Positions 7,785 to 21,825 of a stretch of DNA of 29,344 nt are shown here, in pieces. Below the pieces are notes generated by a model that saw nothing but the letters and a program-made list of their open reading frames with translations, had not been told where the DNA came from and did no database searches. The stretch comes from a virus, in IMG/VR virus record IMGVR_UViG_3300033996_002166, positions 1 through 29,344 of that record. One strand, written 5' to 3'. The translations under genes and the position numbers were made by a program. Numbering within the stretch: position 1 is the first letter of the stretch; every line of letters starts with the position of its first letter.

Positions 7785-8038
7785 CCCACGGGGCATGGCG
7801 GGCAGTTCATGGCTCCCGGATATGCGCTCCCTGGCAACGCTGTCTACTGCCCGGCCCTGGCGGTAGCAACCACGGCCTCTTGCCCCTGCTACGGCAGGCG
7901 TCATCAACGAGGGACCCGTCGAGGTTTACCGCTGGCGCCAACCGTCACTGGAGGTGGGCGGTAACAAGCGCAGACCAGTAAGTCCCCGGCTTTTTTACAC
8001 AATTTTTTCCCTGTTTTTTCTTATGGAAGAGGCGCCCA
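7785..8038 (+). other. Gap with an uncertain small ORF
   Basis: 254 bases without a convincing gene. A 51-codon ORF (ATG 7809, stop 7962-7964) starts MAPGYALPGNAVYC but turns basic and repetitive. Another frame reads GVINEGPVEVYRWRQPS further on, which looks more protein-like. The two would join with one frameshift, but the evidence is too thin to call a gene. Confidence 0.25.
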
Positions 8039-8209
8039 ATGACCCACACCATCTGTGAAAACCAACGCGTCACTTTTGAGGACGGCCTCGTCTGGAAGCT
8101 GACGATGGCGGCCACCCCAGGTGTTGGCACCTGGAATGTGAAAGCCACCTTGACCCGCAACGGCAGGGTCAAGGAAAGGCATGGCCGGTGGTCAGCCCGA
8201 ACCGGGTAG
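8039..8209 (+). CDS. Small hypothetical protein
   Basis: 56 residues (MTHTICENQRVTFEDGLVWK..., ending WSARTG). It has one of the few good Shine-Dalgarno sequences in the window (GGAAGAGG, 7 bases before the ATG). The sequence reads as a compact strand-rich domain (VTFEDGLVWKLTM, GTWNVKATL). Function unknown. Confidence 0.55.
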   Translation: MTHTICENQRVTFEDGLVWKLTMAATPGVGTWNVKATLTRNGRVKERHGRWSARTG

Positions 8210-8218
8210 ACCAAAACT

Positions 8219-8329
8219 ATGTGGCACCCGCTGCCAGGCTCTGCGATTGCCCAGATTGCAGAGGAGTGGATGCGGGCCAATTCCGTCCCGATCTCAGATG
8301 GTGTGGCGGTTAGCCGGGTGAAGCCATGA
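8219..8329 (+). CDS. Very small ORF coupled to the Pol X-like gene
   Basis: 36 residues (MWHPLPGSAIAQIAEEWMRA...). Its TGA overlaps the next gene's start as ATGA, the coupling used throughout this cluster, which is the main reason to keep it. It may act mainly as a translational link. Confidence 0.4.
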   Translation: MWHPLPGSAIAQIAEEWMRANSVPISDGVAVSRVKP

Positions 8330-8850
8330 GCACCGGTCCCCGCATCCCCCTGGCAGAGGCCTTGGATATTGCCGCCAACGTGGTGGCCGTCCTGGGCCCG
8401 CACTGCCTGAAGATCGACGTTGCCGGCAGCGTCCGTCGGCATAGCCCAACGATTGGCGACCTGGAAATCGTCTGCCTGCCCAACCGCGACCCTCTTGAAT
8501 CGACGCCGCTGTTTGCCGGTGGCTTTGCAATGGCTGTGGAGCAGTGGCCCAAGATTATTGGCGGTCCCGACGGCCGCTACACCAGACGAATGCTCCCCTG
8601 CGGGCTGAAGTTGGATTTGTTCATGCCGCATCCCGATGGCTACGGCCTGATTCTGGCCATCCGAACAGGATCTGAAGACTGGTCGCACAAGGTTTTGGCC
8701 ACCGCATGGAAGCGAGCCGGCTTCTATTCATACAAGGGGTTGCTGCGCCGCGAAGATGAGTCGGTCATTCCCTGCCGCACTGAGCGGGAACTGTTCGACG
8801 TGATCGGACTGCGCTGGGTTGATCCGGTGGACAGGGAGGTTGGGCCATGA
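8326..8850 (+). CDS. Stand-alone Pol X-type nucleotidyltransferase (palm plus thumb)
   Basis: 174 residues. AGSVRRHSPTIGDLEIVC (33-50) is the Pol beta-family signature, G-S-x-R-R...G-D-x-E/D, with metal ligands Asp45 and Glu47. LKLDLFMP supplies the third carboxylate, Asp97. The following RTGSEDWSHKVLATAWKRAG and the C-terminal CRTERELFDVIGLRW-DP-R match the Pol X thumb (T-G-S, then S/T-E-x-x-I/L-F...P-x-x-R). The 8-kDa lyase and fingers regions of full Pol X enzymes are missing. It could fill short gaps or add nucleotides to an unknown substrate. The start overlaps the previous ORF by ATGA and the end overlaps the next gene by ATGA. Confidence 0.75.
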   Translation: MSTGPRIPLAEALDIAANVVAVLGPHCLKIDVAGSVRRHSPTIGDLEIVCLPNRDPLESTPLFAGGFAMAVEQWPKIIGGPDGRYTRRMLPCGLKLDLFMPHPDGYGLILAIRTGSEDWSHKVLATAWKRAGFYSYKGLLRREDESVIPCRTERELFDVIGLRWVDPVDREVGP

Positions 8851-9206
8851 GCGTTCTTGCCTCCCTGCTGCACCCGGCCTACGAACTCGCCACGGATTCT
8901 GGCGAAAAAATTGCAGATGGCGCCCAGCTGGTTGACTGCCAATGGTGGCATCCTCGGTTTGGTTGCGACTCGCTCCAGTTCGTGGTGGACAACGCCCGCC
9001 AGGCGCTGGCCCCAGAGGTCGCCACCCCCGGCGAGCAGTACCACGAGGATGACGGCCCGGTCCTCTGGTGGCGGTTCCCGGTTGTTGAGCCCCCATACTC
9101 AGGCACCCCCTGCGGGCCAGGTTGGCGGCTGAATTACTACACCCACTACACCCCGCTGCCGCCCGCCCCGGTGGCGCCGACCCAACTATCCAACGAGGCC
9201 TTATGA
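8847..9206 (+). CDS. Hypothetical protein
   Basis: 119 residues, acidic, rich in Trp, Pro and Tyr (CQWWHPRFGCDSLQF, VLWWRFPVVEPPYSG, WRLNYYTHYTPLPP). No family recognised and no membrane segment. It overlaps the preceding Pol X-like gene and the following gene by ATGA at both ends. Confidence 0.6.
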   Translation: MSVLASLLHPAYELATDSGEKIADGAQLVDCQWWHPRFGCDSLQFVVDNARQALAPEVATPGEQYHEDDGPVLWWRFPVVEPPYSGTPCGPGWRLNYYTHYTPLPPAPVAPTQLSNEAL

Positions 9207-9400
9207 GCACCCCCAGGCCACTGAGCCCCGCCGCGCAGGCGGTGTTGGATGCCGTCTTGAACGAAACGGCACCTTTGAGTGAGCAGCGCCAGCAGAGAAC
9301 AGATGCCGCCGCCGCCCTCTACGCCGCTGCCCATTACCTCAGCCACGGTCGCCGCCAATTGGCAGCCATCGCCACCGAGCTGGAAGGGCACCATGGCTGA
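9203..9400 (+). CDS. Small helical hypothetical protein
   Basis: 65 residues (MSTPRPLSPAAQAVLDAVLN...), two or three predicted helices. The start at 9203 is chosen over an in-frame upstream ATG because it gives the ATGA overlap with the preceding gene. LSPAAQAVLDAVLNE is a common opening for small phage and cyanobacterial helical proteins of unknown role. Confidence 0.6.
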   Translation: MSTPRPLSPAAQAVLDAVLNETAPLSEQRQQRTDAAAALYAAAHYLSHGRRQLAAIATELEGHHG

Positions 9401-9698
9401 CCCCACCCTCTCGGACCGCCTGGCCCTGGCTGCGTGCCCCCGGCAACGGTCAGGGGCAACCCCATGTTTTGCGCCGTGTATTGACTGCCTCGCCATTGCC
9501 AAGGCGGTTGCCCACGAAATTGCCGACCACTTCAGCGACGCGATTGGTTGCCACCAGCCCAACACCGAGCCGTCTATCCAGGACGAATGGAAAGCCCTGG
9601 AGCGCACGCAAGACCTGCGAATGTGGCCATCGATTGACCCAGGCCAGGAGGCTGCCGCGATGGCCGTTGCCCGTGAGCTAAGGAGACCCGATGTCTAA
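9393..9698 (+). CDS. Hypothetical protein with Cys pairs
   Basis: 101 residues (MADPTLSDRLALAACPRQRS...). Cysteines in AACPRQRSGATPCFAPCIDC could bind a metal, but spacing alone does not define a family. The rest is helical. The start at 9393 overlaps the previous gene by 8 bp, and the stop overlaps the next gene by 8 bp. Confidence 0.55.
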   Translation: MADPTLSDRLALAACPRQRSGATPCFAPCIDCLAIAKAVAHEIADHFSDAIGCHQPNTEPSIQDEWKALERTQDLRMWPSIDPGQEAAAMAVARELRRPDV

Positions 9699-10092
9699 CC
9701 CCGTGTCAAACGATGAGCTGGACTGGCTGATCTGGCACGCCCTGCGCAATGACGATCGTCACCCCACTTGGATTGATTCTGTAGTGCTTGCAGCAAGTGG
9801 CTGCAAAAAGCAACTTTGGCTAGGGCTTAGCAGAATCACAGGCAGGATCCAGGCCATGCGTCGCGCCGGTCGTATCCGTTTCTGGAGGCACCCTCCCGCA
9901 AATCCGAGCATCAAGTCCCACGGCTGGGAAGTGCTCGGCTGCCCTGGTGCCGGCATCCAGGAGAACGGGCAATTTGACTGGGCCTATAGCTGCGCCGATT
10001 GCCTGCGCCGCACCAGACCGGACCCTGCTGATGGGGTGATCGAGCCGCCGCTGATCATCGCGTTTGAATGTGAACTGAGGATTGAACCATGA
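9691..10092 (+). CDS. Hypothetical protein with winged-helix-like region
   Basis: 133 residues. Residues 5-65 (DELDWLIWHALRNDDRHPTWIDSVV..., then SRITGRIQAMRRAGRIRFWRH) read as a helix-turn-helix followed by a basic wing, so DNA binding is possible. The C-terminal part has C-x-x-C (SCADCLRR). It overlaps its neighbours by 8 and 4 bp. No confident family. Confidence 0.55.
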   Translation: MSNPVSNDELDWLIWHALRNDDRHPTWIDSVVLAASGCKKQLWLGLSRITGRIQAMRRAGRIRFWRHPPANPSIKSHGWEVLGCPGAGIQENGQFDWAYSCADCLRRTRPDPADGVIEPPLIIAFECELRIEP

Positions 10093-10373
10093 CCACCCCC
10101 GCGCTTTGCTTCCAGGTTCGCCCCTTTGGGGATGAGTACGTCGGCTATGTGTTTACGGAAGCCAGGGGCAAGGCCAAAGCGTTGGCCATGCAATCCGATC
10201 CCGGCAACTCACCGCCTTACCTGGTCGAAGACTTTACGAAATGGTCAGTTCGCCGCTGGCAGCAACTAGACGGACGGCTGCCGGTAGGCGCCGCCTTGTG
10301 GTGCCCGCAGGACGTGCCAGATGGCTCCGGTATCGATCCGGTTGCTTTGTGGACTGACTTTTCTTTTGCCTAA
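10089..10373 (+). CDS. Small hypothetical protein
   Basis: 94 residues (MTTPALCFQVRPFGDEYVGYVFTEARGKAKALAMQSDP...). It looks like a compact alpha/beta domain. The ATGA overlap with the upstream gene supports the start. Similar GKAKALA openings occur in small phage proteins I cannot assign. Confidence 0.6.
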   Translation: MTTPALCFQVRPFGDEYVGYVFTEARGKAKALAMQSDPGNSPPYLVEDFTKWSVRRWQQLDGRLPVGAALWCPQDVPDGSGIDPVALWTDFSFA

Positions 10374-10890
10374 CCCCAAACGCCCCGGCCGCCCCCGCAA
10401 ACCCGCTGTCCCCGGGGCCACACCAGAGCCCCCAGACACCACCCCGCAGGGCCCACCACCCCCTAGCGGGGATGCAGTGGTAGCGGCCCTGCTCGCCGTG
10501 GTATCTGGCGCCGTGCCGGTTGAGGCCTGGGAGGTTCGAGCTGACGAGCCCCTCGATCGGCAGCAGGTATGGGCCGGCGACGGCTGGCGGTTTGCGGTTT
10601 GGTGGCAGATGGGGGTGCTCCATCGCCTGGCTGTGGCGCTGGCCCCTGGTGGCGGCCGGTGGGAATACGGCTGCGGCCGGTGGCCAGATTGGCTGGCCGG
10701 GCCTGATGCCGTGGTGCTCGATCCGATCCACCACCTGCTGACAGCTCAGCAGCGGGCTCAGCTGCAAACCCGGCTGCTGGGTTGCACGTTGCGGCCTAGG
10801 CCTCCGGTGCCTGAGTATTTCACGCGCCCCTGGCCGTCGCTCGATGAGACGTTTCCGGCCGATGAAGACTGGCTAGAGCGGGCGAGCTAA
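10366..10890 (+). CDS. Hypothetical protein with AT-hook-like N-terminus
   Basis: About 174 residues if it starts at TTG 10366, which overlaps the previous stop by 8 bp. An ATG at 10321 is in frame but would overlap the previous gene by 53 bp. The N-terminus PKRPGRPRKP resembles an AT-hook (GRP core with basic flanks), followed by a Pro-rich linker and a Trp/Gly-rich domain (WAGDGWRFAVWWQMG...). It is the last gene of the rightward cluster and is followed by the inverted repeat at 10902. Confidence 0.5.
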   Translation: MPNPKRPGRPRKPAVPGATPEPPDTTPQGPPPPSGDAVVAALLAVVSGAVPVEAWEVRADEPLDRQQVWAGDGWRFAVWWQMGVLHRLAVALAPGGGRWEYGCGRWPDWLAGPDAVVLDPIHHLLTAQQRAQLQTRLLGCTLRPRPPVPEYFTRPWPSLDETFPADEDWLERAS

Positions 10891-10901
10891 AGGCCTAGCA
10901 G

Positions 10902-10932
10902 TTCAGTTGTCCGGAAATTCCGGATGACTGAA
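10902..10932. other. 31-bp inverted repeat between convergent operons
   Basis: Outer arms TTCAGT and ACTGAA enclose the perfect 15-bp palindrome TCCGGAAATTCCGGA, with two mismatched positions between. It follows the rightward cluster by 11 bases and could be its terminator (only a short T-rich tail follows) or a protein-binding site. Confidence 0.6.
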
Positions 10933-10943
10933 TTTGATGCTTG

Positions 10944-10969
10944 CCATGAAAAAGCCCCCGGATGGGGGC
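10944..10969 (-). terminator. Rho-independent terminator of the leftward small-gene operon
   Basis: On the minus strand GCCCCC-ATCC-GGGGGC (10954-10969) is followed at once by TTTTT (10949-10953). It lies 7 bases after the stop of the 124-residue gene at 10977, exactly where the operon should end. Confidence 0.8.
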
Positions 10970-10976
10970 GGTGGGG

Positions 10977-11351
10977 TCAGTCGTCGTCTTTGGAGTGATC
11001 GCGGTGCCTGTCCCGCGCTTCGGCATGATCGACCATTGCGATGGTCCTTGCACGTTCACGGTTGCGAATGCGTTGTTCTCGCAGGGCGTCGGCCGCATGC
11101 GCTTCCCACTGCTCAACATAGTTCGACACCAGCTGCAGCAGGCGGAAAGCTTCGGTCCGTTCGTCTCGGGCACGCTGCCAGGCACCGGGCTCCTGAGAGT
11201 AGAAATCTCTCAAGTTGCAGGTTGCGGCCCGCAGCAATTCTTCTGTAGCCGTAACTGCCTCCCGGACGGCTCGATACTCGGCCTCCAGGCTGGCGGCGCC
11301 GGTGCCGTTTAGGTGGATCGTGGGCAGGGTGACAGGGGTTGGCTCGTTCAT
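10977..11351 (-). CDS. Helical hypothetical protein, last gene of leftward operon A
   Basis: 124 residues. After a strand-like N-terminus it is a long charged helical protein (AEYRAVREAVTATEELLRAATCNLRDF...) ending in an Arg/Asp/His-rich tail. A coiled coil is possible. The ATG lies 3 bases after the stop of a 13-codon mini-ORF, which suggests re-initiation. The terminator follows directly. Function unknown. Confidence 0.6.
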   Translation of the reverse strand: MNEPTPVTLPTIHLNGTGAASLEAEYRAVREAVTATEELLRAATCNLRDFYSQEPGAWQRARDERTEAFRLLQLVSNYVEQWEAHAADALREQRIRNRERARTIAMVDHAEARDRHRDHSKDDD

Positions 11352-11354
11352 GGG

Positions 11355-11396
11355 TTAGATGCAGTTGGACGGTGTGGTCAGATTGGGGTCAGGCAT
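11355..11396 (-). CDS. 13-codon mini-ORF linking two genes
   Basis: MPDPNLTTPSNCI. It begins with the same MPDPN start as the genes at 11790 and 12764 and overlaps the stop of the upstream gene through the same 8-bp ATGCCTGA. It ends 3 bases before the next ATG. It is either a coupling peptide or the remnant of a lost gene from this family of starts. Confidence 0.4.
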   Translation of the reverse strand: MPDPNLTTPSNCI

Positions 11397-11790
11397 TGCC
11401 CTGGCGTCGGCCCCTGGCCCGGCGTGCTCGACGTTTCCGGCCGATGGTGGGGCCTCGTTCAAACTCCCACTGTTCCTGCATGGCCTTTAATAGAAGCGGG
11501 CTGATACTTGCCAGGGCTTTGCTGCAAACTCGCCCAAACGCAAGAAAGCTATCAGTGGTCCGCTTGATTGCAACTTCTAATTTGTCTAAATCAATTGTGC
11601 TGCCGTCAGCAATGCGTTTGATTGCATCATTGAATCTTTCCGAGGATTCATTTCGTTCCCAGTTCCAGCGCTCCTGCCAGGCTTCAAGCTTGCTGCCGCC
11701 CTCAAGGGCAGCCAAGAACCTTTCTTGATACGGCTGAGGGGTGCCGGGGGTTGAGAATGTGATGAGAGGTGGCAGGTTGGGGTCAGGCAT
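11389..11790 (-). CDS. Helical hypothetical protein
   Basis: 133 residues. It starts MPDPNLPPLITFSTPGTP and continues with long helices (EAWQERWNWERNESSERFND..., then KLEVAIKRTTDSFLAFG) and a very basic tail (GRKRRARRARGRRQG) suited to nucleic-acid binding. The start overlaps the upstream stop by ATGCCTGA. AT-richer than its neighbours. No family recognised. Confidence 0.6.
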   Translation of the reverse strand: MPDPNLPPLITFSTPGTPQPYQERFLAALEGGSKLEAWQERWNWERNESSERFNDAIKRIADGSTIDLDKLEVAIKRTTDSFLAFGRVCSKALASISPLLLKAMQEQWEFERGPTIGRKRRARRARGRRQGNA

Positions 11791-11968
11791 TGGAGCACTT
11801 GAGCTGGGATGCCATCTTTTCCGCCATGAGACAGGTGTCTAGTTCACGCCAAACAAGGGGGAATCCCTCGCCGGTTTCCATTGCCTCTTGATAGGCCGCT
11901 TGTGAACGCTCTTCGGCGCAACGGGCGATGTTTGCCCAGGCGGATGCTTGCATGGTGAGGTCAGGCAT
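11783..11968 (-). CDS. Small helical hypothetical protein
   Basis: 61 residues (MPDLTMQASAWANIARCAEERSQ...). The start at 11968 is preferred to an in-frame upstream ATG because it gives the 8-bp ATGCCTGA overlap used by its neighbours. Mostly helical and acidic. Function unknown. Confidence 0.6.
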   Translation of the reverse strand: MPDLTMQASAWANIARCAEERSQAAYQEAMETGEGFPLVWRELDTCLMAEKMASQLKCSNA

Positions 11969-12158
11969 CGACCGGCACCTTCTTGACGCGCAGGGTCCCC
12001 CCGCAAAGCCTCCTGGCCCGATCACGCAGTTGCCGCGCACCGGTGATGCTGAGCTGATCGGCCCTGGCCATGCTGCAAAATTCAGGCAACCGCCTGTCGT
12101 TAATGCGGATGCCGTGGGCCCATGTTTGGCCGTTGTGAACTTCGACGCGGTATGTCAT
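11961..12158 (-). CDS. Small hypothetical protein
   Basis: 65 residues (MTYRVEVHNGQTWAHGIRIN...), a strand-rich N-terminus then a basic helix (ARQLRDRARRLCGGTLRVKKV). The ATG lies 16 bases after intergenic hairpin copy 1. The stop is inside the ATGCCTGA overlap with the next gene. Confidence 0.6.
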   Translation of the reverse strand: MTYRVEVHNGQTWAHGIRINDRRLPEFCSMARADQLSITGARQLRDRARRLCGGTLRVKKVPVDA

Positions 12159-12174
12159 GGGAATGGAAGGCGAC

Positions 12175-12211
12175 GGGATTGAATTGTTGCCGGGAAGCCC
12201 CGGCGGGCTGG
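12175..12211 (-). repeat. Intergenic hairpin repeat, copy 1
   Basis: 37 bp identical to 13531-13567. The core is GCCGGG-AAGC-CCCGGC on the plus strand, a perfect 6-bp stem with a 4-base loop. It lies just after the stop of the gene at 12215 and just before the start at 12158. In the transcript it forms the same hairpin and may stabilise a 3' end, attenuate transcription or mark a processing site. Confidence 0.8.
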
Positions 12212-12214
12212 CGA

Positions 12215-12421
12215 TCAGATCACCCGGCCATTCAGCAGCAAAGTGGAATGAATGCCGCTGTCAAGGCTGAAGAACTCTTTAGCTGGCTTGGCGTCGTTGA
12301 TCTGATCAACCAGGCTACGAACGACAACCATGGCGGCTTCCCATGCGTCGGTGCCAAACTCCAGTGCGTTGACGGCGGCGCGGGCAGACTTGAGCTGGGA
12401 TTGAAGGATGGCGTCGGTCAT
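12215..12421 (-). CDS. Small helical protein, first gene of leftward operon A
   Basis: 68 residues (MTDAILQSQLKSARAAVNAL...). It is helical, with an AWEAAMVVVRSLVDQIND helix. I choose the ATG at 12421 over the in-frame ATG at 12463 because the latter touches the 59-bp upstream repeat, whereas 12421 leaves a 42-base leader, like the 46-base leader of the matching gene at 13988. Function unknown. Confidence 0.6.
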   Translation of the reverse strand: MTDAILQSQLKSARAAVNALEFGTDAWEAAMVVVRSLVDQINDAKPAKEFFSLDSGIHSTLLLNGRVI

Positions 12422-12463
12422 GGCTGGCTGGTTGGTGGGTGGCAACGGCTCGGGTTTCCCCAT

Positions 12464-12522
12464 AATGTAATCGGTAGATAACGCCCCAACGTCCTAAGGG
12501 TGTGACGCTTTACGGATTGTCA
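12464..12522 (-). promoter_or_regulatory. 59-bp upstream repeat, copy A (probable promoter/operator)
   Basis: It aligns without gaps to 14035-14093. The first 22 bases (12464-12485) are identical, and GTGTGACG-type and GATTGTCA blocks are also shared. It lies 42 bases from the start of a small leftward gene in both places. Reading leftward, TTATCT and TACATT in the identical block are possible -10 elements. It overlaps the stop of the gene ending at 12510. Confidence 0.7.
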
Positions 12523-12764
12523 CCTTTGCCCTTTGCTTTTTTCTGCTGGCGATGCTCCCACACCAACCGGGCCACCGTTGCCCGGCCCTCTGGGGTTTTG
12601 CGGGCACACTCCCAGCAGAGCAGGCCATGGGTGCCGGTGTGCAATCGAGGGCAGTTTTCGCACGGAATTCGCCGGCCACCTGGTGCCATGCCTTCATTGC
12701 GGCGTCGGTAGAGGTTTTGGCGCCAGGCTGCAGGATTGGGCTGTGGGGCGTTGGGGTCAGGCAT
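12510..12764 (-). CDS. Small zinc-ribbon-like protein
   Basis: 84 residues from the ATG at 12764 (MPDPNAPQPNPAAWRQNLYR...). CENC and LLCWEC form a C-x-x-C...C-x-x-C pair, so zinc binding is likely. The C-terminus is basic (HRQQKKAKGKG). The MPDPN start matches those at 11790 and 11396. A run of nine C's directly before the start separates it from an ATG at 12799 that overlaps the upstream stop. One extra C would fuse that start in frame, so the true N-terminus is open. Confidence 0.6.
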   Translation of the reverse strand: MPDPNAPQPNPAAWRQNLYRRRNEGMAPGGRRIPCENCPRLHTGTHGLLCWECARKTPEGRATVARLVWEHRQQKKAKGKGDNP

Positions 12765-12795
12765 TGGGGGGGGGTGGTGGTGGTCGTGGTGGCGG

Positions 12796-13028
12796 TCATT
12801 CCTTGTCAAACCCGATATGAAGCCATTGGCAAGGCTCGATCGTCAGCGGCGCGGGCCATTGCTCATGGGTTTCAACTCTCCCACCTTCGGTCATGGTGCC
12901 TTTAATTACCGTCCCTGTGCCTGGGTCACAGGCCAGCACGCCAAACAACAAACGCCCGAGGTGGTCGCGGACAATGGCGCCGTTGGGATACTGCTGGCGA
13001 AATGCGGGGGGTTGTTGAGGTCAAGCAT
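12796..13028 (-). pseudogene. Small gene interrupted by a one-base frameshift in a C6 run
   Basis: The ATG at 13028 overlaps the upstream stop through ATGCTTGA, like its neighbours, and reads MLDLNNPP. It then enters an implausible frame that stops after 40 codons. One extra C in the run at about 13006-13011 would instead continue into AFRQQYPNGAIVRDHLGRL and on to HIGFDKE before TGA at 12796. That frame is clearly protein-like but has no start of its own. The intact product would be about 77 residues. The cause may be an assembly error, a true mutation, phase variation or programmed slippage. Confidence 0.6.
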
Positions 13029-13518
13029 CAAAAGGCCCCCAGGCGATGCTGCAGGTGTAACGGCGTTGGAGCAGCTCCATTACTACGGCTGTACTGGAGT
13101 TGCGGAGCCCTATAGGTCGCAGCAGCTCTTGCAATTCCAGGTAGTTGTAGGCGTTGGCAACGTCCGCCAGCCCCTGACGCAGCAAGGCGACCCGTGCCCG
13201 ATCTGCTCGGGCCATGGTGCTCCGATCCACCAGCCCCCAGGCCGCTGCCAGGGTGGCAGTGATCGGCGCCAGGGCCGCAATCGGTTGACTGGGTAGCCGC
13301 CGCGCCGAATCAGCAGCCAGTTCCTCAACCTGCTGGAGGCCCCAGGCCCCGGCTGCGTAGGTGGCTGCTGCTGCTGTGATCAGCGCCGCGCCGATCTGCC
13401 GTCGGTGACGCCAGAGCCAGAGGCCCCCGGCCGCAATGGCCAGGCCGGCCAGGGTGATCAGCAGGGGGGCAATGCGTGCCGCCGCAGTGGCGGGGTGAAG
13501 GGTTCGAGATTTGAACAT
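13021..13518 (-). CDS. Small membrane protein
   Basis: 165 residues from the ATG at 13518 (MFKSRTLHPATAAARIAPLL). Two adjacent hydrophobic segments at about residues 15-35 and 40-62 (IAPLLITLAGLAIAAGGLWLW and IGAALITAAAATYAAG), separated by RHRRQ, form a membrane hairpin. The remainder is soluble and helical (GLADVANAYNYLELQELL). A holin role is possible from the topology but unsupported by position. It lies 12 bases after hairpin copy 2. Confidence 0.6.
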   Translation of the reverse strand: MFKSRTLHPATAAARIAPLLITLAGLAIAAGGLWLWRHRRQIGAALITAAAATYAAGAWGLQQVEELAADSARRLPSQPIAALAPITATLAAAWGLVDRSTMARADRARVALLRQGLADVANAYNYLELQELLRPIGLRNSSTAVVMELLQRRYTCSIAWGPFDA

Positions 13519-13530
13519 GGGATTGGGGGG

Positions 13531-13567
13531 GGGATTGAATTGTTGCCGGGAAGCCCCGGCGGGCTGG
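13531..13567 (-). repeat. Intergenic hairpin repeat, copy 2
   Basis: 37 bp identical to copy 1 at 12175-12211, placed between the stop at 13580 and the start at 13518. It is adjacent to a run of nine G's (13525-13533) on the plus strand. Confidence 0.8.
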
Positions 13568-13579
13568 GGTGCAATGGCG

Positions 13580-13756
13580 TCACCACCACTCGTTGAACTC
13601 GGCCCGTGCGTCGGACATGCCGCTATTGACCGCATCGGCCAGCTGGCGCATCTCGCTGGCCAGCGCCAGGCCCCGATCAATCGAGGCGGAGTAGGCCGCC
13701 ATCGCCGCGTCAATCTGCAGCAGCAGAGCGTCGGTATCAGCGTCAGGGCATGTCAT
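13580..13756 (-). CDS. Small helical hypothetical protein
   Basis: 58 residues (MTCPDADTDALLLQIDAAMA...), ending in ARAEFNEWW. It reads as a single helical, acidic, soluble protein. It is flanked on both sides by hairpin repeats (copies 3 and 2). Function unknown. Confidence 0.55.
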   Translation of the reverse strand: MTCPDADTDALLLQIDAAMAAYSASIDRGLALASEMRQLADAVNSGMSDARAEFNEWW

Positions 13757-13783
13757 GGCGGTGTGTGTGATGTGGGCGAGTGA

Positions 13784-13814
13784 CGCCGGGGATGCCCGGC
13801 GGACTGGTGATCGG
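13784..13814 (-). repeat. Intergenic hairpin repeat, copy 3 (diverged)
   Basis: GCCGGG-GATG-CCCGGC with the flank GGACTGGTGATCG, a diverged version of the GGGCTGGCGATCA flank of copy 1. It directly follows the stop of the gene at 13815, just as copy 1 follows the stop of the gene at 12215. Confidence 0.65.
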
Positions 13815-13988
13815 TCAGACCAGATCAGCGGCTTCCATGGCGGCGGTCAGTCCAATCAGGATTCCGTGTGCCCGGCTCAGCGCGTGCCGAGCATCGGCCG
13901 GCAGCTCCAGCCAGAAGTCGGTGGCCTGGAGGGCCTCCAGCTCTTCGGCTGCGTTGGAGGCGTGTGCGTGAGGCAGTTCGTAGTCCAT
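13815..13988 (-). CDS. Small acidic helical protein, first gene of leftward operon B
   Basis: 57 residues (MDYELPHAHASNAAEELEAL...), ending MEAADLV. Strongly helical with good coding character, unlike the longer overlapping frame on the same strand. It lies 46 bases from the 59-bp repeat copy B and is followed by hairpin copy 3. Function unknown. Confidence 0.6.
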   Translation of the reverse strand: MDYELPHAHASNAAEELEALQATDFWLELPADARHALSRAHGILIGLTAAMEAADLV

Positions 13989-14034
13989 GCTGCGGAGTGC
14001 GATTGGATCCGGGGATCTCCGCCCCGGCGATCAG

Positions 14035-14093
14035 AATGTAATCGGTAGATAACGCCACGGAGCGCTAGGGGTGTGACGGTTCACAGATTGTCA
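14035..14093 (-). promoter_or_regulatory. 59-bp upstream repeat, copy B (probable promoter/operator)
   Basis: Partner of copy A. 14035-14056 is identical to 12464-12485. This copy also carries the near-perfect dyad TGTGACGGTTCACA at 14072-14085, of the TGTGA/TCACA type bound by CRP-family regulators but with a 4-base rather than 6-base spacer. It heads the operon starting with the gene at 13988. Confidence 0.7.
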
Positions 14094-14110
14094 TGTGGTG
14101 GGGTTGTTTC

Positions 14111-14170
14111 GTGGCAAACCACGGCAAACCACGGCAAACCACGGCAAACCGTGGCAAACCGTGGTAAGTT
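14111..14170. repeat. Five 10-bp iterons plus a partial sixth
   Basis: Units at 14111, 14121, 14131, 14141 and 14151 all read (GT/AC)GGCAAACC, and 14161 begins a degenerate sixth (GTGGTAAGTT). The period of 10 bp is close to one helical turn. The end units make local palindromes, GTGGCAAACCAC at 14111 and CCACGGCAAACCGTGG at 14139. The array lies between leftward operon B and the rightward early genes, a place suited to an origin or a bidirectional switch. Confidence 0.85.
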
Positions 14171-14205
14171 CCGGAAACGCGCCACACCCGTGCGCCCCCA
14201 TCCCC

Positions 14206-14445
14206 ATGATCACCGACCCTCGACACCGCGAGCTGTTGCAGCGGGCAATCGATGCCCAGACCGTAGTGGCTGACGAGCTTCAGTCCGCGTATAACGCCCG
14301 AATAGCCTTGCCGATTGATCACCCCCAGCGGCTTGAAACGCGAGACCTGTGGCGCGATAGCAAAGCGCTTGAAGCCTTGATCTCTGGCGCCCATGGCCTG
14401 CTGACCGGCATTGCTGGCGCTGCCGCGCTGCAGGGAAGGTCCTAG
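14206..14445 (+). CDS. Small helical hypothetical protein
   Basis: 79 residues from ATG 14206 (MITDPRHRELLQRAIDAQTV...). Helical. The frame is also open upstream through the iterons to 14095, but the iteron-encoded residues are low-complexity, so I start it after them. It is the first gene of the long rightward operon. Confidence 0.6.
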   Translation: MITDPRHRELLQRAIDAQTVVADELQSAYNARIALPIDHPQRLETRDLWRDSKALEALISGAHGLLTGIAGAAALQGRS

Positions 14446-14447
14446 CC

Positions 14448-14582
14448 ATGACCCTCCCATTCACCGGGGGAGCGTTCCTCGCCGGCGTGGTCTGCATTGC
14501 CTGGATCAGCGCGACCCTTCGAGCCCCCCAGATCCCTCTGCCGCCGCCTCAGCCTCTGTTGTTCGAGCAGCGCCAGCCATGA
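14448..14582 (+). CDS. Small single-span membrane protein
   Basis: 44 residues with one hydrophobic segment near the N-terminus (GGAFLAGVVCIAWISATL) and a Pro-rich tail. Its stop overlaps the next start (ATGA). It may be a small membrane-anchored accessory protein. Confidence 0.55.
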   Translation: MTLPFTGGAFLAGVVCIAWISATLRAPQIPLPPPQPLLFEQRQP

Positions 14583-14923
14583 GTACGAAGCCGATCCCAA
14601 AGCGCCGCCCCGGCCCCGGCACACGGGTCAGCGGGGCGATTTACGACGCCGTCGGCAACAGCGTAACGGTGTACGCGCATCTATCTGCAGATGCCTACCA
14701 GCAGCTCAAGCTGCTGCAGGAGCAAACCGGCGACACCCAAGCAGGCGCCTTTCGCTCCCTGATTTTTAGGGGTGCCGAATCCCTTGGGTTTCGAGATTCG
14801 GTTTCCGCCATGGATGCGTTGGCCGCTGCCAATGGCGGGGCCAGCGATGCCAGGGCCGTGCATCACCTGATCCGGCTCGGTGCCGGGCTCAACCCAATTC
14901 TCTCCAATCCTCCAACGCCATGA
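14579..14923 (+). CDS. Possible ribbon-helix-helix regulator
   Basis: 114 residues from ATG 14579. VTVYAHLSADAYQQLKLLQEQTG followed by AGAFRSLIFRGAESLG is strand-helix-helix, compatible with an RHH DNA-binding fold. The N-terminus is basic (KPIPKRRPGPG). Overlaps both neighbours by ATGA. Confidence 0.5.
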   Translation: MSTKPIPKRRPGPGTRVSGAIYDAVGNSVTVYAHLSADAYQQLKLLQEQTGDTQAGAFRSLIFRGAESLGFRDSVSAMDALAAANGGASDARAVHHLIRLGAGLNPILSNPPTP

Positions 14924-15261
14924 ATCGACTATCTGATCGTGTGTCACTAGCTGAATTCTTGGACATCAAGCGCCTTGACGCGACGATGTATCACCTGTGG
15001 GGCTTGCGTGCATCCTGGAGGGCCATGGCCAAGCCCCAGCGGATTGATGCGCTGCGGGTTGCGGCTCTAAGCCTGGGCAACATCGCTGATCGGCAGCTCC
15101 CGCCTGGTCAGCGCCGCGCCCGATGCCAAGTCGCTGGATTTGAAAACTGCGTCTTGATGGGAGCAATCGGCCTGATTGCTTCCGCCCTGGCCTACACGGT
15201 AGGGGTTGAGCAGGGCCGCGCACGGTTCCCCGTGGGAAGCGCTGAGACGGTGGTGCGATGA
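14920..15261 (+). CDS. Hypothetical protein with C-terminal membrane segment
   Basis: 113 residues. The first part is helical and basic. Residues 78-95 (VLMGAIGLIASALAYTVGV) are a likely membrane span. ATGA overlaps with both the preceding gene and the exonuclease. Confidence 0.55.
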   Translation: MNRLSDRVSLAEFLDIKRLDATMYHLWGLRASWRAMAKPQRIDALRVAALSLGNIADRQLPPGQRRARCQVAGFENCVLMGAIGLIASALAYTVGVEQGRARFPVGSAETVVR

Positions 15262-15959
15262 AAATCGCCGACTACCACCGCCACCCGGCTTCGATTTATC
15301 ACCATGACATTGAGCAGGGCAGCGACAAATGGCACGCCCTGCGCCGGGGCGTGATCACCGCCAGCACGATCAGCAAGCTGATCACCGGCTCCGGCAAACC
15401 TGCCAACAACGACACCAGCCGCACCCAGCTGCTGCAGTTGCTGGCCGAGCGGATCACCGGTGAGACCGATGCCAGTTTCTACGGCGACGACATGGCCCGC
15501 GGGCACCTACTGGAACCGTTGGCCCGTGACATCTACGCCCAACACCGAGCACCGGTGCAGGAGTGCGGATTCGTCACCGCTGATTTCGACGGCACCGTGA
15601 TTGGCTACAGCCCCGACGGGCTAGTGGGTGATCAAGGCCTGATTGAGATCAAGAGCCCCCGGCAGAAGCATCATCTTCGGTCGCTGCTCAGTGATGACGT
15701 GCCCGCTGAATATGTGCCGCAGGTCCAGACCGGCCTTGCTGTCACTGGCCGCCACTGGTGTGACTACATCAGTTACGCCCCCGGCCTGCCGCTGTTTGTT
15801 CGCCGGTGCGAGCGTGACGATGTGGTGATCGCCCAGCTGATCACTGCAGCACAGGCCGCTGAAGCCGAGCTACGGATGCTGATGGAGCTCTACACCGCAA
15901 AAGCCGCCATTTTCCCGGCCACCGAACTTATCCAGCCTGAACAGGAGATCTTTATTTGA
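15258..15959 (+). CDS. YqaJ/lambda-exonuclease-type recombination nuclease
   Basis: 233 residues. GSDKWHALRRGVITAS near the N-terminus is the usual YqaJ opening (W-x-x-x-R-x-G-x-x-T-A-S). Catalytic residues visible are Glu86, Asp120 in GYSPDGL, Glu130 and Lys132 in LIEIKSP, and Gln155 in YVPQVQ. The enzyme resects double-stranded ends 5'-3' to give single strands for annealing-based recombination. It is followed by a conserved phage protein and an SSB, so the three form a recombination/replication unit. No recognisable Bet, RecT or Erf annealase is present. Confidence 0.88.
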   Translation: MKIADYHRHPASIYHHDIEQGSDKWHALRRGVITASTISKLITGSGKPANNDTSRTQLLQLLAERITGETDASFYGDDMARGHLLEPLARDIYAQHRAPVQECGFVTADFDGTVIGYSPDGLVGDQGLIEIKSPRQKHHLRSLLSDDVPAEYVPQVQTGLAVTGRHWCDYISYAPGLPLFVRRCERDDVVIAQLITAAQAAEAELRMLMELYTAKAAIFPATELIQPEQEIFI

Positions 15960-16903
15960 TGGACATTGCAGCCACTTTGGAGGCGAAATCCTCACAGCTC
16001 AACACAGACGACCTGATTGCCGGCCCGAAGACAATCACGATCACAAAGGTCTCGGCCGGCAGCGCTGAGCAACCTGTCGCCGTTTCGTTCGAGGGTGACA
16101 GCGGCAAGCCATGGTACCCCTGCAAAAGTATGCGCCGCGTCCTGGTCGCTGCCTGGGGCGCCGATGCCTCGCAGTACGTGGGCCGACGGGTGACATTGTT
16201 CCGAGACCCCGGCGTCACCTACGGCGGCATCCAGGTCGGCGGCATCAGGGTGTCGCACCTGTCAGACCTGGACGGCCCCCTGTCAATCGCGCTCACCGTC
16301 ACCCGGCAGAAACGCAGTCCCTACAAGGTGCAGCCGTTGCCTGCATCACCGCCGGCACCGGCCAAGCCCGCGCCGCCTGCGCCGCCTGCCGCCGCAGACC
16401 TGATCCAAGCCGCCGCCGACGCCTGCCGCCGTTCCGGTCTGACCAATGCCGGGATCATTGCGTTCGTGCTCGAATTAACCCAGGGGAACACCAGCGCCCT
16501 GAGCGATGCACCGCCTGAGGCGCTGGCCAAGATCGTCAGGCTGGGCGTCAGCCCTCAGACCGTTGAGCGCTGCAATGCAAAGCCTGAAGCGGAGCCCCAG
16601 GCCCCAAATTCTGAGCCCACCCCCAGCTCCCCGAATTTGGAGGCCAGCTCCCCGAATTTAGGGCCCAGCTCCCTGACGCTGCCCCCCACCAGCGGCCCGG
16701 AACAGCCCGCCCCGGCCGTCGAACCTGGCACGGTTCAGCGGCTGCCGGTGGGGCGAACCATCGTGGCCGCCGATCCCCAGCCAGCACCTGCGCCCGCCAC
16801 TGCAGCCCCTGCAGCTGGCCGACGGTCCGCCCCTGCTCCAGTCCGCCGGTCACCCCCAGCTGCTGCGCCTGGTGCTGACGCCCCGATCCTTGGCCTGGAT
16901 TGA
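15959..16903 (+). CDS. Conserved phage protein of the exonuclease-SSB unit
   Basis: 314 residues from the ATG at 15959 (a TTG one codon earlier is possible). The first 125 residues form a compact domain with GPKTITITKV, SFEGDSGKPWYPCKSMRRVL and GRRVTLFRDPGVTYGGIQVGG. From memory this domain recurs in phages as an uncharacterised protein near replication genes. The rest is low-complexity Pro/Ala with short repeats of SSPNLE/SSPNLG type. Between the two, a helical segment at about 145-200 may be a separate module. Its place between exonuclease and SSB makes it a candidate annealing or accessory factor; that is inference. Confidence 0.6.
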   Translation: MDIAATLEAKSSQLNTDDLIAGPKTITITKVSAGSAEQPVAVSFEGDSGKPWYPCKSMRRVLVAAWGADASQYVGRRVTLFRDPGVTYGGIQVGGIRVSHLSDLDGPLSIALTVTRQKRSPYKVQPLPASPPAPAKPAPPAPPAAADLIQAAADACRRSGLTNAGIIAFVLELTQGNTSALSDAPPEALAKIVRLGVSPQTVERCNAKPEAEPQAPNSEPTPSSPNLEASSPNLGPSSLTLPPTSGPEQPAPAVEPGTVQRLPVGRTIVAADPQPAPAPATAAPAAGRRSAPAPVRRSPPAAAPGADAPILGLD

Positions 16904-16944
16904 TCACTGCCCCATCCCATCTCATCCCATCAAATCCCCCCCCT

Positions 16945-17631
16945 ATGAATCGGCTCACTTTGCTGGCCTACATCACGTCGCCGCCGGCACTCTCTACCCC
17001 TTCCGCTGGTGGTCAACGCCAGGCATTTTTCAACGTTGAGATCAGCCCCTACAAACAAACGGATTCCCCCATGCCGCTGCAAGTGACAGCCTGGGATGCG
17101 CTGGCCCCCGACGTGATGGCAAACATCAGGTCGGGCTCCTGGGCGGTCATCACCGGACGGCTCAGGATCGAAAAGGGCACGCCGCCGGAGTTTCAGCTAG
17201 AGGGCTTCCATCGGGTCGGCGCGCTTCTCGATCTCCCCGGCGTCAATTCCGTTGCCCTGGTAGGCCGCGCCGGCCGCGACCCTGAGGCCAGCTACTTTGA
17301 GTCGGGCAGCATGGTTGCCAAATTCACCCTGGCCGTAAACCGCCGTAGCCGGGACGATCAGCCCGACTGGTTCCCCCTTGAGATATGGGGTAACCAAGCC
17401 CAGGTCGCTGCCGACTACGTGCGCAAGGGCTCCCTGCTGGGCATCATCGGCTCCTTCAAGCTCGACCGCTGGACCGACCGCAGCACCGGCGAGGAGCGCA
17501 CCAAACCGGTCATCAATGTGGATCAGCTGGAGCTGCTGGGCAGCAAGCGAGACGCCGAGGGTGGTGCTGGGGCAGGTGGGTATTCGGCCCCTGGTTACGG
17601 CGGCCAATCAGAGGAAGAGGCGCCTTTCTGA
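16945..17631 (+). CDS. ssb: Single-stranded DNA-binding protein with two OB folds
   Basis: 228 residues. Residues 100-200 are a standard SSB domain of cyanobacterial type (SVALVGRAGRDPEASYFESG, FTLAVNRRSRDDQPDWFPLE, YVRKGSLLGIIGSFK). Residues 1-92 are a second OB fold resembling the Ycf41-type SSB-like proteins of cyanobacteria and plastids (MNRLTLLAYI, LQVTAWDALAPDVMANIRSGSW, GRLRIEKG). The C-terminus ends in a Gly-rich linker and the acidic tip EEEAPF, the normal partner-docking tail. The start follows a pyrimidine-rich leader with a run of C's and no Shine-Dalgarno. Fusion of the two domains in one chain is unusual. Confidence 0.85.
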   Translation: MNRLTLLAYITSPPALSTPSAGGQRQAFFNVEISPYKQTDSPMPLQVTAWDALAPDVMANIRSGSWAVITGRLRIEKGTPPEFQLEGFHRVGALLDLPGVNSVALVGRAGRDPEASYFESGSMVAKFTLAVNRRSRDDQPDWFPLEIWGNQAQVAADYVRKGSLLGIIGSFKLDRWTDRSTGEERTKPVINVDQLELLGSKRDAEGGAGAGGYSAPGYGGQSEEEAPF

Positions 17632-18227
17632 TGGGACTCCTGAATTGGATCGTGGGGCTGCTGCCACCCAACGATTTTGATTTAGACCGCGAGATCGACC
17701 GCGAGATCGCTCGCCGCCGTGGCTCCAATCCTCCCGCGCCAGGCAGCAAGCCTGCAGCCCCGGCTGGCCCCCCCGCCAAACCCCAGCCAACTGGTGGGCG
17801 ACTGATCTATAGCGACCGCGACCCTGGCCCAGTCCCACCCCGCTTGCCCGATGACCTGGCTGATCTGCCGGTAATGCCAGCGGAGATATTGGACGGCGCT
17901 GCAGCGGCCCCCGCCCCGGCTGAGATGCCGAGCGACGAGCTGCTTGATCAATGGGTCCAGGAGGCCAGGCGCTTGCACACCGCCAGCGGCTATCACATAA
18001 ACGCCTCCACCACCATGGCTCGATTGGCCATTGCCTGGGCTCGCCAGCAGCAGGCCCAATCCCTCCAGCTCCCACCATCTGGCGCCGATCCGGTGGCGAC
18101 GGATGGGGATCTGCTGAAGGTTTGGGATCGCATTTTTTGGGCTGATGACGCACGCCGCGCCATCTACACCCGTGGCCGCGCAGACGAGCGCACCGCGATT
18201 CTGCGGGCGCTGGGGGTGCAGCCATGA
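17631..18227 (+). CDS. Hypothetical protein
   Basis: 198 residues. The N-terminus (MGLLNWIVGLLPPNDFDLDR) is an amphipathic helix, followed by a Pro-rich linker. The C-terminal part from about residue 100 is helical and charged. Not recognised. The ATG shares a base with the SSB stop (TGATG), so the two are probably co-translated, and it may act with SSB. Confidence 0.6.
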   Translation: MGLLNWIVGLLPPNDFDLDREIDREIARRRGSNPPAPGSKPAAPAGPPAKPQPTGGRLIYSDRDPGPVPPRLPDDLADLPVMPAEILDGAAAAPAPAEMPSDELLDQWVQEARRLHTASGYHINASTTMARLAIAWARQQQAQSLQLPPSGADPVATDGDLLKVWDRIFWADDARRAIYTRGRADERTAILRALGVQP

Positions 18228-18421
18228 CCGGCCCCTTCGACTTCCCCCGTCCACCTAGGCCACCAGGCAAGCTAAACCCCTATCTAAACGCCATGAGCGC
18301 TGCCAGTTTGATTGCTGGGTTTGCTTTTATTTTTGATGCCAATGTAATTGCATTTGTGTTTGGTATTTTGACCTGCATTTGCGCTGTTTTGACTATTCAT
18401 CACGCGAGGTTTCAACCATGA
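18224..18421 (+). CDS. Small membrane protein with two spans
   Basis: 65 residues. After a Pro-rich N-terminus there are two hydrophobic segments (SAASLIAGFAFIF and IAFVFGILTCICAVLTI). AT-richer than its neighbours, suggesting separate origin. ATGA overlaps at both ends. A holin or host-membrane effector is possible, unproven. Confidence 0.6.
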   Translation: MTGPFDFPRPPRPPGKLNPYLNAMSAASLIAGFAFIFDANVIAFVFGILTCICAVLTIHHARFQP

Positions 18422-19020
18422 GCACCCTCCCCGAAACAACCCTGGCCCATCTGCGGCATCTTGCAGCGGCTGGCCAGTATGACGCTCAGGCGCTACTGCA
18501 GCTGCTCGCCCGCGCCGATGCCCGCGATCAAGATGTTGCAGAGTTCGTGGACCACTACTCCAAAACCATCGCCGCGCTCTGCCGTCGACTGGAGGCCCTG
18601 GAGCGTGGGGCCAAGGATCTGCCAGCACCGGCCGCCCGGGTGGATGACGGCCCGGTTGCCAATGCCCTGACCGTGGCCGAATCTGCCCTGGCGGATGTTG
18701 CCGAGGGGGAGGCAGTCTCGCCCCACGCCGTTGGCTGTCTGCACTGGGCTGAGGCACGCTGCACCGAGGCCCTTGCCGCCATCCGCCCAGCGATGCGGCA
18801 GCACGGGATCCGGACATCGGACTTATCACCGGCGCCAACACCACCGCCTGCCGACCCTGCCGACCCTGCCGAGAGGCTGGTGGAAAGGGTGATAAGCGCA
18901 ATGGGCCGATCCACTTCCTTCGAAAACTCCTACGCCGCGATTCGTGAGGTAGCCGACTGGCTCGACACGCAGGGGCACCAAACCGGCGCCAATGCTGTGC
19001 GCTGTGAGCTGTGCAGATGA
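18418..19020 (+). CDS. Hypothetical helical protein
   Basis: 200 residues from the ATG at 18418, overlapping the previous stop by ATGA. Helical (TTLAHLRHLAAAGQYDAQAL...), with a Pro-rich linker around residue 140 containing PADPADPAE, and a helical C-terminal domain (AAIREVADWLDTQGH). No family recognised. Confidence 0.6.
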   Translation: MSTLPETTLAHLRHLAAAGQYDAQALLQLLARADARDQDVAEFVDHYSKTIAALCRRLEALERGAKDLPAPAARVDDGPVANALTVAESALADVAEGEAVSPHAVGCLHWAEARCTEALAAIRPAMRQHGIRTSDLSPAPTPPPADPADPAERLVERVISAMGRSTSFENSYAAIREVADWLDTQGHQTGANAVRCELCR

Positions 19021-19976
19021 CCATACCCGATCAAATCCAAATCACCCATCAACCCAGAACCATGACCACGCCCCGCGCCGCCCTGACATCTGACGACATC
19101 CCCCCTGGCCCGCTATCAGAGGACGATCTACGCCAGCGATGGAATCAACAGGCCGACGAGCACAACCAGTGGGAGTCGCTGGACTCCTGCGAGCAATTGG
19201 AATGGGCCCAAGCCCTGGCGATTAAGGCCGATCGACATGCCGCCACCCCGCCAGCCCCGGAGCCGGGGGGGTCAACCGAATGGGAGTGGAAAGACATCGG
19301 CGATGGCAAGCCGGTAAAGGTTCGGCGGTGCCATAAATGTGGAGTCTGCCCATCAAACGTTGACGACTGCGCCCACTTCGGTGATTCACGTTGCCCATAT
19401 TTTGGGATTGATGCTATGGCCACCCCGCCAGCGCCGGAGCCTGGCCCCACATTCCAAGACGCCATTCACCTGGCCGAGGGCTGCCACGATTACTCAGGCG
19501 GCCATAGCGGGGCAGAGGGGGAGGCCTGGCATGGCGCCATCGATACGGTCGTGGATGTGCTCAAGCGGGCGGCGGTTGGGGCCTGGGACAGCCAGACCAG
19601 AGCGGTGTATGGCGTTGGGGCGGAGGCCCAGGCTGGGGAGGTGGCGGAGCCGGAGCCGGTGGCCGAGCTTGACGACCAGCAGCGTGAGGGGGAATCGGGC
19701 TTGACACGGCAATCAGCTATTCATGGCTTTAGATCTCAGTTAACAGAAGAAGCCAGCTCCCGTTACGGACTAACCTCTCAGGACGCCGAATTTGATGCTT
19801 TTGCCTCAGGTGCATCTTGGGCGTGGGCCACTTACGTCACTGCAATTGCGGGCGGTTTCGGTCAAGCGCCCCAGGCTGGGGAGTTGGCTGTGCCGGAGCC
19901 AGTGGCTGAATGCCCAAATTGCGGCTATGAAGGCGAGATGGTACCAGTGCCACTGGCTGGGGAGGTGGAGGCGTGA
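19017..19976 (+). CDS. Modular hypothetical protein with Pro/Glu repeats and Cys motifs
   Basis: 319 residues from ATG 19017. The motif ATPPAPEPG occurs twice, and GEVAEPEPVAE / GELAVPEPVAE twice. These linkers separate small modules. One module is Cys-rich (CHKCGVCPSNVDDCAHFGDS), and the end has CPNCGYEGEMV, a zinc-ribbon knuckle. The protein seems built by shuffling short domains. Function unknown. It overlaps both neighbours by ATGA. Confidence 0.6.
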   Translation: MTIPDQIQITHQPRTMTTPRAALTSDDIPPGPLSEDDLRQRWNQQADEHNQWESLDSCEQLEWAQALAIKADRHAATPPAPEPGGSTEWEWKDIGDGKPVKVRRCHKCGVCPSNVDDCAHFGDSRCPYFGIDAMATPPAPEPGPTFQDAIHLAEGCHDYSGGHSGAEGEAWHGAIDTVVDVLKRAAVGAWDSQTRAVYGVGAEAQAGEVAEPEPVAELDDQQREGESGLTRQSAIHGFRSQLTEEASSRYGLTSQDAEFDAFASGASWAWATYVTAIAGGFGQAPQAGELAVPEPVAECPNCGYEGEMVPVPLAGEVEA

Positions 19977-20224
19977 GCGATTACAAAACCGTAAAGACCA
20001 GCCGCGAAGTCTGGGCCATTATTCGTGCTCGTCATCCTGAACTTGTGCCGTTTGGTACTGCATCATTTGAAGGCGACATGTTTACAAGTTATGGATTTCC
20101 TGCTGCCGATTTTCCACTAATAGAGGCTAGGACTACGTGGGAACTTGACCCAGACAGACCAAGCCACCGCATCAATGAACAAAGCCTTTTCTGGTTGTGT
20201 ATCCCAATCAAAGAAAAACCATGA
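19973..20224 (+). CDS. Small hypothetical protein
   Basis: 83 residues (MSDYKTVKTSREVWAIIRAR...), AT-richer than flanking genes. Compact alpha/beta appearance; not recognised. ATGA overlap with the preceding gene. Confidence 0.6.
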   Translation: MSDYKTVKTSREVWAIIRARHPELVPFGTASFEGDMFTSYGFPAADFPLIEARTTWELDPDRPSHRINEQSLFWLCIPIKEKP

Positions 20225-20268
20225 GCGCCAGCACCCCATCCACCCTCACCCCTGACCCCCAATGCTGA
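20221..20268 (+). CDS. 15-codon mini-ORF linking to the dCTP deaminase
   Basis: MSASTPSTLTPDPQC. Its ATG overlaps the upstream stop (ATGA) and its TGA lies inside the next gene's start region (ATGCTGA). Like the mini-ORF at 11355 it may serve only to carry ribosomes to the next start. Confidence 0.35.
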   Translation: MSASTPSTLTPDPQC

Positions 20269-21517: not shown

Positions 21518-21825
21518 AAAACCCAATCCCTGCAGCGTTGCTCACAGCCACCCTCGCCCGCCGCGGCACGGTTGCCCCTGACGCCCTGCTCGATTGCCTG
21601 TCTCTGGTGGCGGTCCTGGATGCACGCAGCCCCGACCTTGCCCACCCACTCGCGCTAACCGAGCGGCTGATCACTTTGGAGGATTTGCGCCGGGCCTGGT
21701 GCTGCTCCAACTGGGAAGCGATCCGCCGCATGGATACGCTTCGGTTTGAGCAGCTGGTTGACTGCACCTACCACTCTGCCGAGACTGCCTTTTGGCAAGT
21801 GCATCGCGTGGGGCCGGTGGCATGA
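21514..21825 (+). CDS. Hypothetical protein
   Basis: 103 residues (MKNPIPAALLTATLARRGTV...), helical, possibly HTH-like (TLEDLRRAWCCSNWEAIRRM). Sits between thymidylate kinase and the methyltransferase, overlapping both by ATGA. Not recognised. Confidence 0.55.
   Translation: MKNPIPAALLTATLARRGTVAPDALLDCLSLVAVLDARSPDLAHPLALTERLITLEDLRRAWCCSNWEAIRRMDTLRFEQLVDCTYHSAETAFWQVHRVGPVA

Follow-up and report, generated by a model that had tools for sequence, protein, structure and literature searches.

A two-block 59-bp element, probably a promoter-control region, heads an exchangeable cassette of small genes in cyanosiphoviruses

Why should two small leftward genes with dissimilar products be headed by the same sequence? 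The question arises in an IMG/VR virus record of 29,344 bp, analysed here as one stretch (the window), in which 12464-12522 and 14035-14093, both read leftward, align without gaps over 59 bp and have a 22-bp block in common. The original prediction had described these two copies, the identical 22-bp block and two further matching blocks, lying 42 and 46 nt upstream of the ATGs at 12421 and 13988, and all of these coordinates, matches and distances were correct. Read leftward, copy 1 (14093-14035) is TGACAATCTGTGAACCGTCACA-CCCCTAGCGCTCCGTG-GCGTTATCTACCGATTACATT and copy 2 (12522-12464) is TGACAATCCGTAAAGCGTCACA-CCCTTAGGACGTTGGG-GCGTTATCTACCGATTACATT. The element consists of block 1 (GACAAT...GTCACA, 22 bp), a loose 16-bp spacer (positions 23-38) and the core GCGTTATCT-N5-TTACATT, in which N5 is a pentamer at positions 48-52; its invariant positions are GACAAT (2-7), AA (13-14), GTCACA (17-22), GCGTTATCT (39-47) and TTACATT (53-59). 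At up to three mismatches, the 22-mer occurs in the 29,344-bp window only at the two copies; zero occurrences are expected by chance, and 100 dinucleotide shuffles of the window gave none. A weight matrix built from all copies of the element, these two included, gives the sites 92 and 90 bits and no more than -12 anywhere else in the window. Copy 2 begins at 12522 with 13 nt that are the final codons and stop of the upstream gene F2 (12510-12764), the stop codon being element positions 11-13, unlike the start of copy 1 (14093), which is non-coding. The two copies are laid out as follows:

14035..14093, minus strand: element copy 1, 59 bp; block 1 14093-14072, spacer 14071-14056, core 14055-14035; genome-specific pentamer ACCGA; -10-like TACATT 14040-14035; predicted transcription start near 14028
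12464..12522, minus strand: element copy 2, 59 bp; block 1 12522-12501, spacer 12500-12485, core 12484-12464; -10-like TACATT 12469-12464; transcription start predicted near 12457; overlap with the 3' end of zinc-ribbon gene F2

A search of related phages for the block had been proposed with the original prediction, and scanning IMG/VR with exact and degenerate element patterns gave 14 contigs beyond the window that carry the element. Together with the window these hold 29 copies, 21 of them distinct, all 59 bp long and free of indels. Contigs have two copies each, except for G002 and G004, with three each, and three contigs cut at the locus, with a single copy. All 29 lie in one leftward locus and are aimed at small leftward genes, with both blocks at exact spacing and never split. 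No block was found alone, the runner-up position in any contig scores far under the sites with the weight matrix, and the pattern that the prediction had named as counting against it, the 22-bp block at random spots inside genes, was never seen in the contigs. Its term regulon is fair, but the regulon is small, each phage having two or three sites within a single leftward locus.

The window's tail protein (26312-28462) matches only the Synechococcus phages S-LBS1, S-CBS1 and S-CBS3, and the large terminase (TerL) of the sister contig G010 and that of S-CBS3 have 60% identity. By their related terminase and tail genes, these viruses are cyanosiphoviruses of the S-CBS1/S-CBS3/S-LBS1 group, and the same tail and TerL matches indicate that the host is probably a Synechococcus-like cyanobacterium. 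The element is absent from the genomes of S-LBS1, S-CBS1 and S-CBS3, neither F2 nor F4 (a conserved gene at the far end of the locus) has a match in cultured phages, and megablast of window positions 8000-20000 against phages returned nothing. Searching IMG/VR with F2 or F4 recovered only contigs already known from the element, so no diverged version of it is available. In 84,980 prokaryote species the core pattern gave 41 matches, which we take as the chance level: each is a single match, they are scattered over unrelated taxa with no cyanobacterium named among them, and none has block 1, the whole element being mismatched at 12 positions or more.

The locus is ordered as follows: a rightward replication operon, a divergent region with 10-bp tandem repeats, copy 1, F3, F0, F2, copy 2, two to five variable small genes, an intrinsic terminator and the convergent gene F4. 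In the window, its features other than the element are:

14113..14160, no strand: tandem direct repeats of 10 bp (4.8 copies of the unit CCACGGTTTG) within the divergent region; differ between phages
13815..13988, minus strand: F3, 57 aa, first gene behind copy 1, in 13 of 15 contigs; function unassigned
13580..13756, minus strand: small ORF, 58 aa, with a hairpin leader upstream
13545..13560, minus strand: hairpin leader GCCGGG-gctt-CCCGGC before F0; second copy at 12189-12204 before F47
14009-14027 and 13784-13801, minus strand: related hairpins of the leftward locus
13021..13518, minus strand: F0, probable membrane protein; N-terminus conserved, C-terminus variable
12510..12764, minus strand: F2, 84 aa, zinc-ribbon-like (CxxC...CxxC); conserved frame; candidate regulator
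12215..12421, minus strand: F49, 68 aa, first variable cassette gene behind copy 2
11961..12158, minus strand: F47, cassette gene, 65 aa, with hairpin leader
11783..11968, minus strand: cassette gene, 61 aa
11389..11790, minus strand: F125, cassette gene, 133 aa
10977..11351, minus strand: F92, cassette gene, 124 aa
10954..10969, minus strand: intrinsic terminator GCCCCCATCCGGGGGC-TTTTT, closing the copy 2 unit; in 13 of 13 contigs reaching here
10321..10890, plus strand: F4, conserved convergent gene past the terminator; right limit of cassette exchange

The element co-occurs with F2 and F4. G002 and G004 contain extra units, each an added element copy with its own gene ahead of the F3 unit, and the extra copy in G004 has a copy-2-type leader. 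The protein of this G004 unit (oriented 20162-20617) has a CxxCxGxG...CxxC zinc motif and is weakly Anti-TRAP-like (Pfam E 0.004, under the cut-off). The GC hairpins that the original prediction placed after the two small genes are present, but a better reading takes each as the leader of the gene that follows, some 30-45 nt ahead of its start codon. Across contigs, the GCCGGG-CCCGGCAA form is restricted to the leftward locus and the minus strand. Several genes of the locus have a GC hairpin, then an A/C-rich stretch and then the start, with no Shine-Dalgarno sequence, and the hairpins are possibly a Shine-Dalgarno-independent translation leader that travels with the cassette genes.

The divergent region varies between contigs. 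The tandem repeats at 14113-14160 are a probable operator of another regulator; variants such as CCGTGATCTG occur in G005 and G006, and 10-bp direct repeats are found in the divergent region of contigs encoding F10 and F38. By eye, F38 is ribbon-helix-helix-like, and Pfam gave no match. G001 and G008 are without the tandem repeats, F10 and F38 and have a perfect palindrome, TTACCATTTGGTAA, in that place. This pattern looks like a swappable operator-repressor pair for the rightward operon. G001 and G008 have retained the element, indicating that it is independent of the repeats, F10 and F38. Elsewhere in the window, the conserved 211-aa F6 (3914-4549) shows by eye a Myb/SANT-like segment, an HTH and a NUMOD-like repeat, with HTH_17 matched no better than E 0.05; it is truncated in G003 and is a possible phage regulator. 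The rightward operon encodes a RecE/YqaJ-type exonuclease (15258-15959), a dCTP deaminase (20262-20864), a thymidylate kinase (20861-21517) and a DNA methyltransferase (21792-22799), which suggests altered nucleotide metabolism or DNA modification.

What stands behind copy 2 is exchanged as a whole. G005 and G009 share 93% identity from the replication genes across copy 2 as far as 15 nt beyond the ATG and 99.75% identity from F4 on, and their cassettes are unrelated save one short 65-base match to another place. Judged from this alignment, near-identical phages swap the whole cassette, 645-1495 bp long in 12 contigs, between the start codon of copy 2 and the terminator. Furthermore, G004 and G007 share F97 (96% identical), which stands behind the third element copy in the former and, downstream of F3, in the copy-1 unit of the latter, an arrangement indicating that cargo and element move separately. 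These results agree with the original prediction that the downstream proteins are not similar (they form separate families at E<=1e-5) and that the control region is conserved apart from the genes: the element is kept in 15 contigs and the genes behind copy 2 are swapped wholesale. Nearly all cassette proteins are without a PHROGs or Pfam match; one from G006 (oriented 11801-12109) is a full-length member of phrog_9437, a small family of unassigned function also found in Rhizobium, Agrobacterium, Sinorhizobium and Vibrio phages.

We consider it probable that each copy is a leftward, regulator-dependent promoter-control region, its start site and its factor being inferred from the sequence. TACATT (element positions 54-59) is invariant, and of 22 distinct contexts, 21 have A or G 7 nt downstream of it. 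The hexamer agrees with the sigma-70 -10 at four of six positions only; no consensus sigma-70 promoter (TTGACA, 16-18 nt, TATAAT) lies on the minus strand near either copy, and the element copies have no conserved -35 hexamer at the proper distance. The host (Synechococcus-type) RNA polymerase would use TACATT as its -10 hexamer and begin transcription at the purine 7 nt downstream, just ahead of the GC hairpin, which would form the 5' end of the message; in copy 1, the hairpin begins one base past this purine. Block 1, with its centre near -55, and GCGTTATCT-N5, spanning roughly -27 to -14, would be protein-binding blocks in place of a -35, recruiting, positioning or gating the polymerase through a sequence-specific factor whose N5 specificity varies between phages. 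Copy 1 would then drive an operon F3-orf58-F0-F2, and copy 2 a separate unit of small accessory genes closed by the intrinsic terminator. Framed in this way by copy 2 and the terminator, newly inserted cassettes would be expressed at once under the phage's own control.

A protein on the core would overlap the -10, an arrangement that would fit a repressor as well as an activator. The element may therefore be an operator at which an Aca-like or immunity repressor of the phage, bound to the core over the -10-like hexamer, shuts both units after an early burst, a reading that we regard as possible though not likely. It gains from the imperfect inverted repeat that block 1 and the core form in pentamer types A and B, with centres 42 bp apart, and from precedents: Aca1 and Aca2 repress acr promoters via inverted repeats overlapping the -10/-35 (PMC8434428), and the early genes of SIRV2 have one common regulatory sequence, thought to be repressed by Aca8 (PMC11065993). 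However, type C is without the inverted repeat, no strong -35/-10 promoter is visible that would need repressing, no HTH gene was recognised in the unit, and none of the eight contigs searched has an integrase. Both readings, activator and repressor, describe a promoter-control region, so the confidence that we place in one partly overlaps with that in the other.

The pentamer provides a further clue to the factor. N5 is ACCGA (type A), ACGGA or AGGCG (type C), with the single variants GCCGA and GGTCG. Its agreement between copies 1 and 2 is 0.93 within a genome versus 0.53 between genomes (permutation p=0.0005, over nine genomes that are phylogenetically non-independent); such within-genome matching was not seen for block 1 (p=0.90) or the spacer (p=0.16). 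The window's F49 recurs with few changes in G010, whose element has the other pentamer type, so the pentamer follows the genome and not the cargo. The within-genome match suggests that N5 is read by a phage-specific, trans-acting DNA-binding factor, different in different phages. As this factor we tentatively propose F2, the most economical candidate: it is present in 13 of 13 contigs covering its interval, the other regulator-like candidates tested (F38, F5 and F6) are each absent or truncated in at least one contig, and the C-terminal half of F2 splits into the same two types as the pentamer. Several tail genes show this two-way split as well and F2 overlaps copy 2, so linkage could explain the match between F2 and the pentamer. 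The predicted structure of F2 is weak (pLDDT 71, pTM 0.40), and a structure search with this model gave no significant match. A comparable arrangement is found in phage P2, whose late promoters are activated by the small zinc-finger protein Ogr/delta from a site near -55 and have a -10 without a good -35. The proposed arrangement resembles it in all three respects, the small zinc protein, the site near -55 and the -10 lacking a good -35, whereas neither the Ogr cysteine spacing nor its TGT-N12-ACA site is matched here, and the genes controlled in P2 are late structural genes.

Other explanations of the element are less probable. It might be a homology tract for recombination, which would suit the exchange limits at the element, leader and ATG, the movement of cassette genes between copies, and the RecE-like/YqaJ exonuclease and SSB encoded by the window. 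We find this unlikely, as a homology tract would not keep two invariant blocks around a loose 16-bp spacer, always upstream and in one direction, nor give matching at the pentamer alone, and unrelated backbones that share cassette genes differ at the pentamer. Action at the RNA level, as a 5'-leader switch, an antitermination site or a processing site, is more improbable still: copy 2 may be part of a readthrough transcript begun at copy 1, and both copies have a hairpin after them, but RNAalifold of the 21 copies gave -1.6 versus -0.6 (sd 1.0) for shuffled columns, the sole candidate stem (positions 5-12 with 47-54) is broken without compensation in type C, and the window has no Rfam match. 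Least probable of all is a promoter for a phage-encoded T7-type single-subunit RNA polymerase or sigma factor with N5 as its specificity region, since, although a conserved block of ~21 bp with a genome-specific central pentamer recalls the differences among T7, T3 and SP6 promoters and the relatives S-CBS1, S-CBS3 and S-LBS1 have a gene for an RpoD-like sigma factor, PF00940 is absent from 8 contigs of up to 53 kb by a search that detects T7's, sigma-70 region 2 was found in 0 of 15 contigs (some of them fragments), and block 1 would be left unexplained.

Returning to the regulator-dependent promoter-control region, phage control elements of such a kind are known; the 59-bp family, with its own anatomy in cyanosiphoviruses, is new and unrelated to them. 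First, in SIRV2 and other archaeal viruses, a conserved promoter-containing sequence precedes many small, dissimilar and poorly annotated genes, and as in the cyanophages the sequence is conserved and the genes behind it are not (PMC11065993). In that case, the promoter is of the TATA/BRE type, and for some of the genes the work established early timing and anti-defence activity (PMC11065993); the cyanophage element, in contrast, belongs to viruses of bacteria and has two or three copies per genome and two blocks. Second, the class I intergenic repeats of the archaeal halovirus HF2 are 58 bp long and were shown to be promoters, and they are like the element in near-equal length, conserved blocks with variable stretches, intergenic-only location and conserved position among relatives (PMC8707807). 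They differ in having seven copies across the genome and AT-rich motifs, and the passages of that report consulted describe no exchangeable cassette (PMC8707807). Third, the SAS and ESAS of cluster K mycobacteriophages also lie upstream of small phage genes, occur cluster-wide and have phage-specific consensus positions; SAS is a short motif directly at the start codon and ESAS carries inverted repeats of 17 bp (PMC3203893), whereas the element stands 42-46 nt from the ATG and has an inverted repeat in types A and B only. At last, acr-aca operons likewise place small accessory genes behind one promoter together with a small regulator-like gene (PMC8434428). Here, the candidate regulator is a zinc ribbon, and no HTH Aca homologue or known Acr was recognised by Pfam or PHROGs among the proteins scanned.

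For the cassette genes themselves, an early host-takeover or anti-defence role, as the original prediction proposed, is plausible by analogy with the archaeal viruses (PMC11065993) and from their high turnover. We also put forward, as a doubtful extension, that F2 reads the element, that its DNA specificity and the pentamer co-evolve to give each lineage a private promoter, and that the cassettes are a fast-exchanging cyanophage pool of anti-defence or host-takeover genes. In archaeal viruses, a shared regulatory sequence used as a key led to anti-defence genes (PMC11065993). If the present reading is true, the matched pentamer predicts a specific regulator-target pair, and the element would be a search key for accessory genes in uncultured cyanophages: everything between copy 2 and the terminator would belong to an exchangeable pool, in which many families of small proteins without assigned function are already visible.
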